33,883 bases of DNA from Pseudomonadota bacterium (GCA_018240635.1 JAFEFJ010000011.1:1-33883), one strand, 5' to 3'. Counted from the first letter of the stretch, positions 17,073-23,681 are shown. Translations and numbers: made by a program. The notes: generated by a model from the sequence alone, not told the origin.

Positions 17073-17627
17073 TCCGGCCCCCGCGATCTGGTTGGCAAAC
17101 CGCCGGACCAACGGCGCAATGGCTGCGCGCCACCGCACGCTGAGGGTGGCCTTCGGGAATCATAACGGAAAATGTGCCGGGTCGGCATGGCGTGGCAGCG
17201 AGCGCCGCATCCCTCGATGCGCCGGTTCGGTGAGCGTTATGGGAGATTGGGCGTGCGTTCCGCCGAGAGCTCCCTGGCGGCCGGGACTGTCTCCATGAGT
17301 TATGGAATCCCTCGATCGGTATCTCTCCTGACAGGCTGGTATTGCCGGCCCGACTAGGGGCGCAGTCTTTCGCAATGTCAAAGATGTAGCGCGATCGGCT
17401 GGTTCTAACTTCTATCGCACATCGCTCGCCAGCCCCGCACGCCGTGTGCCCGCCGAAAAGTCGCGGCGCGGCTGCGATCGATCCTCCTCCGACTTAAAAT
17501 GGTCAAACAAACGGATCTGGCCGAGATCACCCCCGCGTGAGGCCTCGCCTCCGCCGCTCAATCGAATTGACACGAGTATCCCCGGCTGTCTTACCATCTA
17601 AAAAATCAGTAATGTGAGGCGCTGGGA
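17073..17627. other. 555-bp intergenic region before the acyl-AMP ligase cluster
   Basis: No frame here shows a protein family or a ribosome binding site. The region is less GC-rich near its right end and contains the TTGACA promoter candidate at 17567-17597. A weak inverted repeat (GTTGG/CCAAC) lies shortly after the SDR stop but has no T-run. I see no RNA gene. Confidence 0.5.
17567..17597 (+). promoter_or_regulatory. candidate sigma-70 promoter of the FAAL-desaturase cluster
   Basis: A perfect -35 TTGACA (17567-17572) is followed after 19 bases by TACCAT (17592-17597), a weak -10. A start near 17604 would leave a leader of about 24 bases before the GTG at 17628. The spacing is one or two bases longer than ideal. 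Confidence 0.4.
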
Positions 17628-19490
17628 GTGGAGCGGTCTGACTTCGGCCAGTCGTCCGCCTTGGAGACGCTCGCTGCGGGAAATGCGGGCTGGAAAGGCG
17701 CGTGCGCCGGACGGTCCGGCGCGTCGCCGCTTGCTCCCGCCGGCACGTTGATCGACGTCCTGCGCCGCAACGCGCACGCGCATCCCGGCAAGACCGCGTT
17801 CGTCTTCCTGAAGGACGGCGAGCACGAGGCCGCGCGGCTGACCTTCGGCGAGCTGTACGAGCGCGCCTGCCGGGTGGGCACCGCACTCCGCCGCCTCGGC
17901 GCGGCCGGGGAGCGGGTGCTGCTGCTCTATCCGCAGAGCCTGGATTTCATCGTGGCGTTCCTGGGAACGCTGCATGCCGGCGCGGTGGCGGTGCCGGGGC
18001 CGCACAACACCAACAGCCGCACCTCCCGCATCGACGCCATCCTGGACGACTCAGCGCCCGCCTTCGCGATGACCGTGCCCGGCATGACGGCGGAGATCGC
18101 GCCCATCCTGGAAGCACGGCGCGGCGGCGCGCGACTGCTGACGGTGGAGGAGCTGCTGGACTTGGTTCCGGCGGCCGCGGCGGAGCAGGCGCCGGCGCTG
18201 GCGGGCGAAGCCCTCGCGCTGCTGCAATTCACCTCGGGTTCGACGCGCACGCCCAAGGGCGTGATGATCACGCACCACAACATCATGCACAACCAGTCTC
18301 TGATCCGCCGCTGGTTCGAGCATTCCGGCGACACGGTCTTTGTCTCGTGGCTGCCGATGTTCCACGACATGGGGCTGATCGGGAACACGCTGCAGCCGGT
18401 CTATGTCGGCTGCCAGTGCGTGGTGATGTCGCCCGCGTCCTTCCTGCAGGAGCCCAGCCGCTGGCTGCGCGCGATCACCCGCTATCGCGGCACCACGGCG
18501 GGCAGCCCGAATTTCGGCTACGATTTCTGCGTCGATCGCATCGGCGCCGAGCAGCGCCAGAGCCTCGATCTCTCGACCTGGGACATCGCCTATAACGGCT
18601 CGGAGCCGGTGAAGGCGCGCACCCTGGCGCGGTTCACCGAGGCCTTCGCCCCGCACGGCTTCAGCCCCGCCGCCTTCTACCCCTGCTACGGCATGGCGGA
18701 GGCGACGCTGCTTGTTTCGGGCGGCGCGAAATCCGCCGAACCTTTCACGCGGGAGTATCAGGCGGCGCCGCTGCCGGGCGGGGCGCCGGAGCCCGCGCGC
18801 ACCATCGTGGGCTGCGGCACGACCTCGGCCGAGCACCGCATCGTCATCGTCGATCCCGAAACGTTGAAGCCTGCGCCGGATGGGCAGACCGGCGAAATCT
18901 GGCTGGCGGGGCCGAGCATCTCGCCCGGCTACTGGAACCGGCCGGAGGAAACCGCAGAAGCCTTCGGCCTGACGCTGGACGGGATGGAGCCGTGGCGCTT
19001 CATGCGCACCGGCGATCTCGGCCTGATGGACAGCGGGCACCTGTTCGTCACCGGCCGGATCAAGGAACTGATCATCGTCCGCGGCCGCAACCACTATCCG
19101 CACGATATCGAGGAAACCGCGCAGGGCAGCCACCCAGCACTGCGGCTCGGCGGCGGGGCGGCCTTCGCGGTGGAGGGCGGGGAGATCCCCCGCATCGTCC
19201 TGGTGAACGAGATCGCGCGGCAATACCTGCGCGAGCCGCCGGTGGCCGAGATCGCCGCGCGGGTGCGCGCCGCGGTGTCGCGCGAGCACGGATTGCAGGT
19301 CGCCGCCGTCGTGCTGATCAAGCCCGGCGCGATTCCCAAGACATCCAGCGGCAAGATCCAGCGCGGGCTGTGCCGGACGCGTTTTCTGGCCGGCACGTTG
19401 GCCGCGGTGGCCGAGGACCGGATCGGCGGAAAGATTTTTGTCGGGGAACAAACGCGGGAGGCGCACAGAAGCGCAGCCGCGCACGTCTAG
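17628..19490 (+). CDS. fatty-acyl-AMP ligase 1 (FAAL, acyl-ACP loading)
   Basis: This 620-residue adenylate-forming enzyme of the FAAL branch activates fatty acids as acyl-AMP and passes them to an ACP rather than to CoA. Visible: the ATP loop TSGSTRTPKG at 202-211, the FAAL stretch WLPMFHDMGLIG at 241-252, YPCYGMAEATLLVSGG at 351-366, the hinge region RTGDLG at 460-465 and catalytic Lys576 in TSSGKIQR. The WLPxxHDMGLIG plus YGMAEATLLVSGG combination is characteristic of FAALs from PKS, lipopeptide and alkyne clusters. The start is GTG 17628, the first possible start after an in-frame TAA at 17610. The desaturase follows 45 bases later. The partner ACP is probably the one at 21611. Confidence 0.9.
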   Translation: MERSDFGQSSALETLAAGNAGWKGACAGRSGASPLAPAGTLIDVLRRNAHAHPGKTAFVFLKDGEHEAARLTFGELYERACRVGTALRRLGAAGERVLLLYPQSLDFIVAFLGTLHAGAVAVPGPHNTNSRTSRIDAILDDSAPAFAMTVPGMTAEIAPILEARRGGARLLTVEELLDLVPAAAAEQAPALAGEALALLQFTSGSTRTPKGVMITHHNIMHNQSLIRRWFEHSGDTVFVSWLPMFHDMGLIGNTLQPVYVGCQCVVMSPASFLQEPSRWLRAITRYRGTTAGSPNFGYDFCVDRIGAEQRQSLDLSTWDIAYNGSEPVKARTLARFTEAFAPHGFSPAAFYPCYGMAEATLLVSGGAKSAEPFTREYQAAPLPGGAPEPARTIVGCGTTSAEHRIVIVDPETLKPAPDGQTGEIWLAGPSISPGYWNRPEETAEAFGLTLDGMEPWRFMRTGDLGLMDSGHLFVTGRIKELIIVRGRNHYPHDIEETAQGSHPALRLGGGAAFAVEGGEIPRIVLVNEIARQYLREPPVAEIAARVRAAVSREHGLQVAAVVLIKPGAIPKTSSGKIQRGLCRTRFLAGTLAAVAEDRIGGKIFVGEQTREAHRSAAAHV

Positions 19491-19535
19491 TGCGGGCTGG
19501 CCTGTGTCTCCCCGTCCGAGAAGGAGGAGTCGACG

Positions 19536-20537
19536 ATGGCCGACCATACCGATGCGTTCCAGGACAACGCCCTGCTGATTTCCAGCGAGCTCGGGCCGCT
19601 TTCCTCGGCGCCCGTGCCGGGCAATGTCACGGTCGAGCAGGGCTTCCTGCGCGGGCCGCAGAAATGGCACGCCATCGCGATCTCCGTGGTGCCCGCGATC
19701 GGCACCGCCGCGGCGATCTGGCTCGCGATCGAATACGGCATGACCGCGACCGACATCTGGCTGGTGCTGGTGATGTACGCGATCACCATGCTGGGGATCA
19801 GCGTCGGCTATCACCGGCATTTCTCGCACCGCTCCTTCAAGGCGGTGACGCCGGTGCGCGTCGCGCTGGCCATCGCGGGCTCGATGGCGGCGCAGGGCTC
19901 GGTTTCCTACTGGGTTGCGAACCACCGGCGGCACCACCAGTACACCGACCGGCCGGGCGACATCCATTCGCCCTATTGGGACGACGAGAAGCAGCTCAAG
20001 ACAGTCGAGGGCTTCTGGCATTCCCACATGGGCTGGACCTTCGGCCACCGCATGACGAACACCGTGACGTTCGCCAAGGACATCTACCGCGACCCCGCGA
20101 TCGCGATGGCGAACAAGCTGTATTACGTCTGGGTGATCGCGGGCCTGGTGGTTCCCGCGATCATAGGCGGGCTGGTTTCGATGTCCTGGTACGGCGCGCT
20201 GACCGGCTTCCTGTGGGGCGGGTTGGTGCGCATGTTCCTGTGCTACCACTTCACCAACGGCATCGACTCCGTCACCCACATCTTCGGCCGCCGCCCGTTC
20301 AGGACCAACGACTACAGCACCAACAACGCGATCTGGGCGTTGCCGACGATGGGCGAGGGCTGGCACAACAACCACCACGCCTTCCCCTCCTCCGCCGTGT
20401 TCGGCTTCACCTGGTGGCAGGTGGATTTCGGCGCGTGGCTGCTGTGGGGCCTGAAGAAGTTCGGCCTGGTGTGGGGCATGAACATCGCCACGCCCGACCT
20501 GATCGAAGCGAAGAAAAAAAGCGGCGCCGCGGCCTGA
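19536..20537 (+). CDS. membrane fatty-acid desaturase 1
   Basis: This 333-residue membrane di-iron desaturase of the stearoyl/acyl-lipid type has the three His boxes at the right spacing: HRHFSH (93-98), HRRHH (130-134) and HNNHH (277-281). A further His occurs in CYHFTN. Hydrophobic segments cover about 46-92 and 192-233. It introduces a double bond, or in the alkyne-forming subgroup a triple bond, into an acyl chain. A strong AAGGAGGAG precedes the ATG. Its place between a FAAL and an ACP suggests an acyl-ACP substrate, as for JamB-type enzymes (inference). It is paralogous to the next gene. Confidence 0.9.
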   Translation: MADHTDAFQDNALLISSELGPLSSAPVPGNVTVEQGFLRGPQKWHAIAISVVPAIGTAAAIWLAIEYGMTATDIWLVLVMYAITMLGISVGYHRHFSHRSFKAVTPVRVALAIAGSMAAQGSVSYWVANHRRHHQYTDRPGDIHSPYWDDEKQLKTVEGFWHSHMGWTFGHRMTNTVTFAKDIYRDPAIAMANKLYYVWVIAGLVVPAIIGGLVSMSWYGALTGFLWGGLVRMFLCYHFTNGIDSVTHIFGRRPFRTNDYSTNNAIWALPTMGEGWHNNHHAFPSSAVFGFTWWQVDFGAWLLWGLKKFGLVWGMNIATPDLIEAKKKSGAAA

Positions 20538-20574
20538 CCGGCCCGAACCCCGGAGAGGATTCGAGGAGTTCCCG

Positions 20575-21540
20575 ATGGACGATCAGGTCAGCGCCAAGGT
20601 CCGCGTCGATCGCCACGTGACGATCGACAACGCCGAGCTTCAACGTCTGCAGCGCCGGCTCGCGCTCGCCACCATGGTGATCCCGTTCCTGGGCACCATC
20701 GTCGCGGTGGGGCTGCTGTTCTACCGACCGATCACGATGGTGGACGTGGTGCTGCTGGTGGTGATGTATTCGCTCACGCTGCTGGGCGTGACGGCGGGGT
20801 TCCACCGGCTGTTCGCGCATTCCGCCTTCGTGGCCAAGCCCGCCCTGCGGGCGGCGCTCGGCATCCTGGGCTCGATGGCCGCGCAGGGCACGCTGATCTA
20901 CTGGGCCGCGACGCATCGCCGCCACCACCACTTCAGCGAGGGCGAGGGCGATCCGCATTCGCCCTACCGCATCGACGGGCGGGAACTCGGCTTCTGGGAA
21001 GGGCTGTGGCATTCGCATCTCGGCTGGATGCTGAACAGCAAGATGACCAACACGGTCCGCTACGCGAAGGACCTGATCCGCGATCCGGTGATCTCCCGCG
21101 TCAACGACCTGTATTACCTCTGGGTCGCGCTCGGGCTGATCATCCCGGCGGTGGCCGGCGCGCTGCTGACGCAGTCCTGGTACGGCGGGCTGACGGGGAT
21201 GCTGTGGGGCGGCTTCGTTCGCCTGTTCCTGGTGCACCACGTGATGTGGACCAGCGGATCGACCGCGCATCTGTTCGGCTTCCGGCCGTTCGAGACGGGC
21301 GACCACAGCACGAACAACCCTGTCCTGGCCTATGCGAATTTCGGCGAGGCCTATCACAACAACCACCACGCCTTCCCTTATTCGGCGCGCTTCGGGCTGC
21401 GGTGGTGGCAGTTCGATCTCGGCGGCTGGGCGATCATGCTGTTCGAGAAGCTGGGCTGGGCATCGGACGTGAAGGTGCCGGCCGAGGAGAAGATCCAGGC
21501 CAAGCGGAAGGGCCGCGGCCCGGCGCATAGCACGGTCTAG
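20575..21540 (+). CDS. membrane fatty-acid desaturase 2
   Basis: This 321-residue protein is a second membrane di-iron desaturase with His boxes HRLFAH (77-82), HRRHHH (114-119) and HNNHH (261-265). It shares long stretches with the first, for example LWHSHLGW versus FWHSHMGW and MTNTVRYAKDL versus MTNTVTFAKDI, so the pair arose by duplication. The residues after box 1 differ (SAF here, RSF in the first), which may reflect a different substrate or outcome. GAGGAG precedes the ATG, 37 bases after the first desaturase. The C-terminus is Lys/Arg-rich. Confidence 0.9.
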   Translation: MDDQVSAKVRVDRHVTIDNAELQRLQRRLALATMVIPFLGTIVAVGLLFYRPITMVDVVLLVVMYSLTLLGVTAGFHRLFAHSAFVAKPALRAALGILGSMAAQGTLIYWAATHRRHHHFSEGEGDPHSPYRIDGRELGFWEGLWHSHLGWMLNSKMTNTVRYAKDLIRDPVISRVNDLYYLWVALGLIIPAVAGALLTQSWYGGLTGMLWGGFVRLFLVHHVMWTSGSTAHLFGFRPFETGDHSTNNPVLAYANFGEAYHNNHHAFPYSARFGLRWWQFDLGGWAIMLFEKLGWASDVKVPAEEKIQAKRKGRGPAHSTV

Positions 21541-21610
21541 CGGCCGCACCTTGCATTTGAACACAAGGGCGCGCGGCATTCGGCGCCCGCCAGAGATCGG
21601 AGGACGGAGC

Positions 21611-21868
21611 GTGTCTGATTCCAACAACCACGTCGAAGCCTGGATGGTGAGCTACCTTGCCGACCTGCTGGACGTGCCGGCGGATGAAGTGAGCCGCACG
21701 ACGCCGTTCGAAAGTTTCGGCCTGGATTCGGCGGCCATCGTCGTGATGACGAGCGACCTTTCCAAATACATCGGCATGGACCTGAAATCGGACCTGTTCT
21801 TCAAGTATCCGGACATCAAGTCGGTGTCGGAATACCTGGGCGCGACGCAACTCAAGCGCGCGGGTTGA
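21611..21868 (+). CDS. acyl carrier protein
   Basis: This 85-residue carrier protein has the phosphopantetheine attachment site Ser40 in SFGLDSAAIV, followed by helices II and III (LFFKYPDIKSVSEYL). The start is GTG 21611, with GGAGGACGGAGC directly upstream. The C-terminus is acidic to neutral. It is separate from the fatty-acid synthase ACP that usually sits by fabF, so it is likely a dedicated carrier for the FAALs and desaturases around it. A phosphopantetheinyl transferase must come from elsewhere. FAAL 2 starts 28 bases later. Confidence 0.92.
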   Translation: MSDSNNHVEAWMVSYLADLLDVPADEVSRTTPFESFGLDSAAIVVMTSDLSKYIGMDLKSDLFFKYPDIKSVSEYLGATQLKRAG

Positions 21869-21896
21869 TGGAACGCGCGCGCGGAACCACGCACTG

Positions 21897-23681
21897 ATGC
21901 CGCCCGCGCTTCCCGGTCCCGCCGACGCCGCCGACACAATCGCAGCGATGCCGCCGGACCCCGCCCGCGCGGCGCGGTCGCTCGTGGAACTGCTCGCGCT
22001 GCGCGCCGCCGCGCAGCCCGACGAGGTGGCCTACACCTATCTCGACCAGGGCGAGGAGCCGGCGGATGCGCTGACCTACGGCGCGTTGGAGCAGCGCGCC
22101 CGCGCGATCGGCGCGCATCTCGGCGCCACGCTGCCGCCGGGCAGCCGGGTGCTGCTGATTTTCCCAAATCAGCTCGATTTCCTGCCCGCCTTCTTCGGCT
22201 GCCACTTCGCCGGCATGATCGCCGTGCCGATGCCGCCGCCGCGCACCGCGCAGGCCGTCGGCCGCCTGCTGCACGTCGCCGCCCGCGCAGGCACGCGTGT
22301 CGCGCTGTGCTCGCCCGATCTGCGCGAGGAACTGGAGCGCCGTCTCGCCGCCGCCGCCGATGCCGACCTCGACCTGATCTTCGCCGACCGAATCCCCGCT
22401 GCCGCCGATCCCGCCTGGCGGCCCGCCGCGCCCGCGGGCGAGGATATCGCGGTGCTGCAATTCACCTCAGGCTCCACCGGCAACCCGAAGGGCGTCTGCG
22501 TCACGCACGCGAACATTCTTCACAACTGCACGCTGCTGGAAAGCGTGTGCGGCTCCGCGCCTGACCTGAAACTGGTTTCATGGCTGCCCAACTTCCACGA
22601 CTGGGGGCTGGTGGGCTGCCTGATGTTCCCGCTCTTCGTCGGGCGGCCGTCCTTCGTGTTCGATCCCGCCGCCTTCCTGTTTCGCCCGCGCCGCTGGCTG
22701 GAAGCGATCAGCCGCGTGCGCGGCACGATCAGTTGCGCGCCCAACTTCGCCTACGAGACCTGCATCCGCGCCGCCACGCGCGATGACGGGCCGCCGCTCG
22801 ACCTGGGTTGCTGGCGCATGGCGCTGGTGGGCGCGGAGCCGGTGCGCAAGGACACGGTGGAGCGTTTCGCCGCCGCCTTCGGGCCGAGCGGGTTCAAGGC
22901 CGATGCTTTCTTCCCCTGCTACGGGCTTGCGGAAAGCACGCTGATCGTCTCGGGCGGTCGCCCTAACGCGCCGCCCGTCTGTCTGCGCGCCGACCGCGCC
23001 GCGCTCGAGGACCGGCGTGTGCGGGTCCTTGCGGATGCAACCGGACCGGAGGCGCGGGACCTGGTCGGCTGCGGCCGCTCGCTCCTGGATCACCGGATCG
23101 TCATCGCCGATCCGCGCACCGGCGAACGCTGCGACCCGGACGAGGTGGGCGAGGTCTGGGTCTCCGGCGGCAGCGTCGCGCGCGGCTACTGGGACGATCC
23201 CGAGCTGTCGCAGGCCACGTTTGGGGCGCGCATCCCCGGCGAGCTCGGCGGACCCTATTTGCGCACCGGCGACCTGGGCTTCCTGCTCGATGGCGAGCTG
23301 TTCATCTGCGGGCGGCTGAAGGACGTCATCATCAAGGCCGGGCAGAACTACTTCGCCGAGGACATCGAGCACAGCGTGGAGCGTGCGCATTCCGCACTGC
23401 GCCCGAATTGCTGCGCCGCCTTCGGCGTGGAGGCCGGTGGCGCGGAGCGGCTGGTGATCGTGCAGGAGCTGGATTACGGCCGGAAGGCCGACGCCCAGGC
23501 GGTCATCGGAAACATACAGATGGCTGTCTCGAAGCAGCACGACGTGATGGCCGACGCCATCGTGCTGATCCGCCCCGGCAGCCTGGAGAAGACCGGCAGC
23601 GGCAAGGTGCGCCGCCAGACCACGCGCACCCTGTTCCTGGACGCCGCTCTTCCCGTGCTTGCCGCCTGGCAGTCCTGGTAG
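21897..23681 (+). CDS. fatty-acyl-AMP ligase 2 (FAAL)
   Basis: This 594-residue FAAL has the loop TSGSTGNPKG at 190-199, WLPNFHDWGLVG at 229-240, YGLAEST at 342-348, a TGDLG hinge stretch and catalytic Lys near 570 in TGSGKVRRQ. It is clearly distinct from the first FAAL (HDWG instead of HDMG, different N-terminus), so it is not a recent duplicate. ATG 21897 is used here; ATG 21948 would remove 17 residues. It may load a second fatty acid or a second carrier, or pass the finished chain on as acyl-AMP. It ends 34 bases before the convergent MaoC gene, with a hairpin between them. Confidence 0.88.
   Translation: MPPALPGPADAADTIAAMPPDPARAARSLVELLALRAAAQPDEVAYTYLDQGEEPADALTYGALEQRARAIGAHLGATLPPGSRVLLIFPNQLDFLPAFFGCHFAGMIAVPMPPPRTAQAVGRLLHVAARAGTRVALCSPDLREELERRLAAAADADLDLIFADRIPAAADPAWRPAAPAGEDIAVLQFTSGSTGNPKGVCVTHANILHNCTLLESVCGSAPDLKLVSWLPNFHDWGLVGCLMFPLFVGRPSFVFDPAAFLFRPRRWLEAISRVRGTISCAPNFAYETCIRAATRDDGPPLDLGCWRMALVGAEPVRKDTVERFAAAFGPSGFKADAFFPCYGLAESTLIVSGGRPNAPPVCLRADRAALEDRRVRVLADATGPEARDLVGCGRSLLDHRIVIADPRTGERCDPDEVGEVWVSGGSVARGYWDDPELSQATFGARIPGELGGPYLRTGDLGFLLDGELFICGRLKDVIIKAGQNYFAEDIEHSVERAHSALRPNCCAAFGVEAGGAERLVIVQELDYGRKADAQAVIGNIQMAVSKQHDVMADAIVLIRPGSLEKTGSGKVRRQTTRTLFLDAALPVLAAWQSW

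Follow-up and report, generated by a model that had tools for sequence, protein, structure and literature searches.

Five neighbouring, tightly packed genes at 17628-23681 on the plus strand of a 33,883-nucleotide stretch of DNA (the whole stretch analysed, hereafter the window) encoded, by ORF calls, a fatty acyl-AMP ligase (FAAL1), two desaturases (Des1 and Des2), an acyl carrier protein (ACP) and a second ligase (FAAL2). This FAAL-Des-Des-ACP-FAAL block is a new variation on the known FAAL/desaturase/ACP cassette; its order, clade and rarity were established, and its chemistry is predicted. It is probably (at about 60%) an acquired, ACP-based desaturation cassette of the JamABC kind, in which FAAL2 would provide a second activation. 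The broad acyl-ACP desaturase family includes the characterised route by which bacteria make terminal alkynes, which serve as click handles. The cassette occurs here in an alphaproteobacterial family that otherwise nearly lacks it, and its doubled activation step is unusual.

Gene organization

Intergenic gaps within the block were 45, 37, 70 and 28 bp, taking GTG 21611 as the start of the ACP gene (Table 1). The ORFs as called mechanically, all on the plus strand, had the coordinates of Table 1 except for the ACP, which was called at 21551-21868. The GTG at 21611 is the more likely start than 21551; GGAGGA sits before it, and the PP-binding match had an E value of 5e-13 with the shortened form and 9e-13 with the mechanical ORF. 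The operon probably consists of just the five genes, because FAAL1 is preceded by 555 bp of intergenic DNA and a MaoC-type gene in convergent orientation lies 34 bp past FAAL2. A scan of the 555-bp gap for sigma-70-like promoters found no site. The gene order given by the first-pass annotation was confirmed by ORFs and Pfam matches, and all the catalytic motifs that it had named (FAAL Lys, three His boxes per desaturase and ACP Ser) were located.

Table 1. Features of the five-gene block and the gap preceding it, in window positions.
Feature	Position	Strand	Remarks
Upstream intergenic gap, 555 bp	17073..17627	+	Probable promoter region, without consensus match
FAAL1, stand-alone fatty acyl-AMP ligase, 620 aa	17628..19490	+	Pfam AMP-binding, E 8e-71
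Des1, membrane fatty acyl desaturase, 333 aa	19536..20537	+	Pfam FA_desaturase, E 2e-18
Des2, membrane fatty acyl desaturase, 321 aa	20575..21540	+	Pfam FA_desaturase, E 4e-19
Stand-alone ACP, 85 aa from GTG 21611	21611..21868	+	PP-binding, E 5e-13
FAAL2, second, divergent fatty acyl-AMP ligase, 594 aa	21897..23681	+	AMP-binding, E 1e-64

Upstream neighbours of the operon encoded amide/branched-chain ABC transporters, amidases and an SDR, and downstream neighbours a MaoC hydratase, a CoA-transferase, an acyl-CoA dehydrogenase, PrpF and an amino-acid ABC transporter; none of the flanking genes looks like a pathway member. Third-position GC of the five genes (0.80-0.93) was similar to that of adjoining genes, and the base composition of the block is native. 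No PKS, NRPS, thioesterase, P450 or rubredoxin gene was present among the window genes identified, no exporter among the identified adjoining genes, and no acyltransferase in the operon.

Desaturases and ACP

Des1 and Des2 each contained three His boxes (HX4H, HRRHH and HNNHH), and the phosphopantetheine site of the ACP (GLDS) lay at 21719-21730. The two desaturases were 47-48% identical to each other. Des1 had its highest identity (54%) with the desaturase of a FAAL-Des-ACP locus of Scytonema sp. RU_4_4 (L018), and the best match of Des2 (53-54%) was desaturase 1 of the FAAL-Des-Des-Des-Des-ACP cluster L191 in the cyanobacterial genome G630, a cluster that also contained one of the closest relatives of Des1 (49-51%).

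The careful desaturase tree comprised 71 sequences. The housekeeping side was represented by two DesC-type references, by the C166 desaturase of the same genome and by further desaturases of the family and class, and cyanobacterial FAAL-Des-ACP-PKS loci (L192, L020 and L022) served as stand-ins for JamB/TtuB. Des1 and Des2 fell within a 34-row group made up solely of desaturases from FAAL-bearing loci (support 93/95), with the references, C166 and the other family and class desaturases outside it. This placement supported the kinship with alkyne-type FAAL/desaturase/ACP cassettes that the first-pass annotation had proposed; the grouping with delta-9 housekeeping enzymes that would have told against it was looked for and was absent, a clade of Des1 and Des2 with housekeeping desaturases being rejected (AU p = 0.0035). 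Six positions, picked from the same data and thus descriptive, separated cassette from other desaturases, and both proteins carried the cassette residue at all six. Des1 and Des2 were in neither polyyne desaturase clade, a forced clade with polyyne Des1 being borderline (p = 0.053). A recent tandem duplication giving Des1 and Des2 was not favoured by the tree and was not rejected (p = 0.295). A quick tree joined Des2 to G630 desaturase 1 and Des1 to G630 desaturase 3 (support 91 and 82), pairings that the careful tree left unresolved.

The two FAALs

Both ligases had an AMP-binding domain with a FAAL-type C-terminal domain (Pfam) and matched FAAL structures over their full length; with P-loop and A10 Lys also present, both are predicted to be stand-alone FAALs. 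Their best NCBIfam matches were FAAL or FAAL-containing models, scoring below the model cut-offs. The best PDB match of FAAL1 was the FAAL domain 7r7f (E 2e-159). Homology of FAAL1 begins near residue 36-40, so its true start may be further downstream. The P-loop and the A10 Lys motif lay at 18231-18260 and 19341-19358 (TSSGKI) in FAAL1, and at 22464-22493 and 23592-23609 (TGSGKV) in FAAL2. The P-loop of FAAL1 (TSGSTRTPKG) had Arg at position 6 (18246-18248), where the cassette FAALs compared carry Gly, Ser or Ala; this Arg may affect activity.

FAAL1 and FAAL2 were 40% identical and differed in the neighbourhood of the acyl site (e.g., VGCQC vs. VGRPS). Prediction of chain length from the FAAL tunnel residues was dropped, as the site varied among cassettes without a clear pattern. 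The best-matching relative of FAAL1 was in the Scytonema locus (49%), and in the FAAL tree FAAL1 belonged to a 28-row group containing non-polyyne cassette FAALs (support 89/96). FAAL2 lay outside the cassette-FAAL group, in a polytomy with FAALs from PKS and other loci. No close relative of FAAL2 was found in what was searched; its best match in 385 genomes of the class (46%) was the N-terminus of a 3,320-aa PKS, and its closest alphaproteobacterial relatives were N-terminal domains of giant PKS proteins. A recent tandem duplication was not favoured by the tree, but a forced topology with the two FAALs as sisters was not rejected (p = 0.296), and separate roles are therefore not forced.

Related loci and distribution

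Plasmid and genome scans, with loci classed by gene order, turned up many FAAL/desaturase/ACP loci. The order FAAL-Des-Des-ACP-FAAL was in none of the related loci read. The view of the second, different FAAL as unusual, taken at first pass, was upheld. Polyyne-type clusters occurred in Streptomyces sp. Mg1, S. eurocidicus, Kibdelosporangium and Burkholderia Bp9142. Complete clusters of this type were carried on large plasmids in Streptomyces sp. Mg1 (pSMg1-1, L016) and S. goshikiensis, with the order FAAL-Des-Des-ACP-Des-hydrolase-rubredoxin-P450-MFS in L016. Cyanobacterial orders were FAAL-Des(-Des)-ACP-PKS, FAAL-Des-ACP-CFAS and, in G630, four desaturases between FAAL and ACP with no nearby PKS.

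Cassettes with a cyclopropane-synthase-like (CFAS-like) methyltransferase were present in Tistrella, Thalassospira, Rhodococcus, Pseudonocardia, Acidiferrobacterales and Burkholderia. Those of the form Des-ACP-(CFAS-like methyltransferase)-FAAL were widespread (L011-L015, L091, L195-L197, L203, L207 and L208), some with P450 and hydrolase, and would pass the published alkyne co-location rule. Many relatives in the same desaturase clade as Des1 and Des2 adjoined such a methyltransferase, which suggests an alkene intermediate in them and a cyclopropanated or methylated acyl-ACP. The rule that FAAL, desaturase and ACP together mean an alkyne is broad and probably over-predicts alkynes, because the methyltransferase is in the operon of many relatives. 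One locus of roughly 18 kb (L193, genome G497, GC 0.64) combined a FAAL and two ACPs with four desaturases of the cassette type, and also had two P450s, two CFAS-like methyltransferases and PKS genes.

At E < 1e-45, 1 of 396 other family genomes (102 genera sampled) yielded a Des2 relative, 44% identical and with an internal stop; in a class-wide sample, five other genomes had one at E < 1e-50. The five-gene operon was probably acquired horizontally, which fits its sporadic distribution; horizontal acquisition has been argued for alkyne cassettes generally (PMC8406139).

Rest of the genome

Four FA_desaturase genes, two of them Des1 and Des2, were present in the genome (551 contigs totalling 4.47 Mb, 91% complete), which had no further FAAL elsewhere, the next ligase scoring 60 bits vs. 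427 for FAAL2. The first-pass statement that PKS and NRPS genes were lacking held within the window genes identified but not for PKS beyond it, as KS genes are present elsewhere. A genome-wide search for a partner, which had been proposed with that statement, returned pieces of a PUFA-synthase-like iterative PKS on contigs C132 (3504-7028) and C137, unlinked to the operon, but no NRPS condensation domain was detected in the genome. The PKS pieces comprised NMO-KS, an ACP with LGIDSIKR followed by KR-DH, and KS-AT-PPTase; the C132/C137 contig break falls probably within tandem ACP repeats. No match to this PKS at E < 1e-150 was obtained in 169 other family genomes. On contig C136 (L115), ispDF preceded genes for a FabZ-like protein, two KS, an SDR and an alcohol dehydrogenase; the set is reminiscent of the acpXL cluster that serves the very-long-chain fatty acid of lipid A in rhizobia.

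Proposed pathway and alternatives

In the proposed pathway, FAAL1 would activate a free fatty acid as acyl-AMP and presumably load it onto the ACP; Des1 and Des2 would then work one after the other on the chain held by the ACP, to yield a diene, enyne or alkyne. Double- versus triple-bond chemistry is not readable from sequence. FAAL2 would provide a second activation, most likely re-activating the released product, or a co-substrate, for another carrier. This relay is proposed by analogy with the Scytonema locus, where a downstream FAAL apparently feeds an NRPS; taken singly, it is a best guess, held less firmly than the scheme as a whole.

The tight order, the complete motifs and the rarity in the family count in favour of the scheme. 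The grouping of Des1 and Des2 (93/95), the rejection of the housekeeping clade (p = 0.0035), the six cassette residues of six, and the position of FAAL1 among and FAAL2 outside the cassette FAALs also support it. Precedents are the stand-alone L191 cassette with no nearby PKS, the two FAALs of Scytonema and the biochemistry of JamABC. Against it, no thioesterase is adjacent to free a product for FAAL2 and no assembly line is linked, and the FAAL sisterhood that was not rejected (p = 0.296) and the odd Arg in the P-loop of FAAL1 also speak against it.

Alternatively, but unlikely, the FAALs would load one ACP redundantly, each with its own chain length, and a lipid acyltransferase would take over the acyl-ACP directly to yield a special membrane or lipid A fatty acid. 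The single ACP, the differing acyl-site neighbourhoods, the FAAL sister duplication that was not rejected and the lack by the operon of thioesterase, exporter, PKS and NRPS among identified window genes would all agree with this, but same-clade relatives are attached to PKS, NRPS or tailoring genes and the operon has no acyltransferase. Quite improbable is a narrower variant of the preferred two-FAAL relay, in which FAAL1, the ACP and the desaturases would build an ene-yne or alkynyl acid, and FAAL2, specific for that product, would transfer it to a carrier encoded elsewhere, for instance the PUFA-synthase-like PKS. If true, Alphaproteobacteria would have a new class of lipid bearing an alkyne or polyene tag.

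That the operon instead feeds an unusual starter to this PKS, with FAAL2 loading it, is more doubtful again. The PKS is as sporadic as the operon, being unmatched in the 169 family genomes, and the nearest alphaproteobacterial relatives of FAAL2 are N-terminal domains of giant PKS proteins; however, the two lie on separate contigs with no linkage, PUFA synthases are self-priming as a rule, and co-occurrence in one genome is weak evidence.

A polyyne pathway without its late genes is very improbable, being disfavoured by gene content and tree. The front order is that of polyyne clusters L016, L081 and L086, so that this part of the first-pass likeness stood; a special link to polyynes was not supported, as neither desaturase is in a polyyne clade (p = 0.053 for the clade with polyyne Des1). 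The polyyne-specific third desaturase and hydrolase that the first-pass annotation had reported missing are indeed absent among window genes identified, as are thioesterase and rubredoxin, the front four genes being flanked on the upstream side by SDR and the operon on the downstream side by MaoC; deletion of any member of the desaturase triad, or of the thioesterase, abolished polyynes (PMC8406139). Ordinary delta-9 desaturases next to unrelated ligases are scarcely tenable: both desaturases are homologous to stearoyl-CoA desaturase (PDB 4ymk, E 3e-29), but the AU test rejected the housekeeping clade, which the distinct genomic desaturase C166 does join.

Comparison with known systems

Two FAALs in one pathway also occur in mycobacterial phenolic glycolipids (PMC11837247). 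The Scytonema locus likewise has two FAALs and supplies the best relatives of FAAL1 and Des1, but has one desaturase, three CFAS-like methyltransferases and an NRPS, and its second FAAL is fused to an ACP (FAAL-Des-ACP-CFASx3, then a FAAL-ACP didomain, then NRPS), from which we infer that this FAAL serves the NRPS assembly line. The L191 cluster, source of the best Des2 relative, likewise has no nearby PKS or NRPS, but has four desaturases and one FAAL. The Des-ACP-methyltransferase-FAAL cassettes of Tistrella mobilis (pTM3), Thalassospira, Rhodococcus and Pseudonocardia (L011-L013 and L015) share FAAL, cassette-type desaturase and ACP, and differ in their CFAS-like methyltransferase, single desaturase and, in some, P450 and hydrolase.

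The seven-gene polyyne cassette of caryoynencin, protegencin, collimonin and cepacin (Mullins et al. 2021, PMC8406139) shares the FAAL-Des-Des-ACP order; the present block differs in desaturase clades and has FAAL2 instead of third desaturase, thioesterase and rubredoxin. With jamABC of jamaicamide (Zhu et al. 2015, as described in PMC4356899), in which JamA loads the acid onto the ACP JamC, where JamB oxidises it (PMC4356899), the block shares a FAAL-first operon, membrane desaturase and stand-alone ACP, and differs in its two desaturases, second FAAL and lack of an adjoining PKS/NRPS, JamB being represented in the tree by stand-ins. FAAL, FA_desaturase and ACP domains are co-located, as in the jamABC-type definition of Mullins et al. 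(2021), and the desaturases group with FAAL-cassette rather than housekeeping enzymes. Judged by its placement in the desaturase tree, the five-gene block is a relative of jamABC-type cassettes rather than a truncated polyyne cluster.
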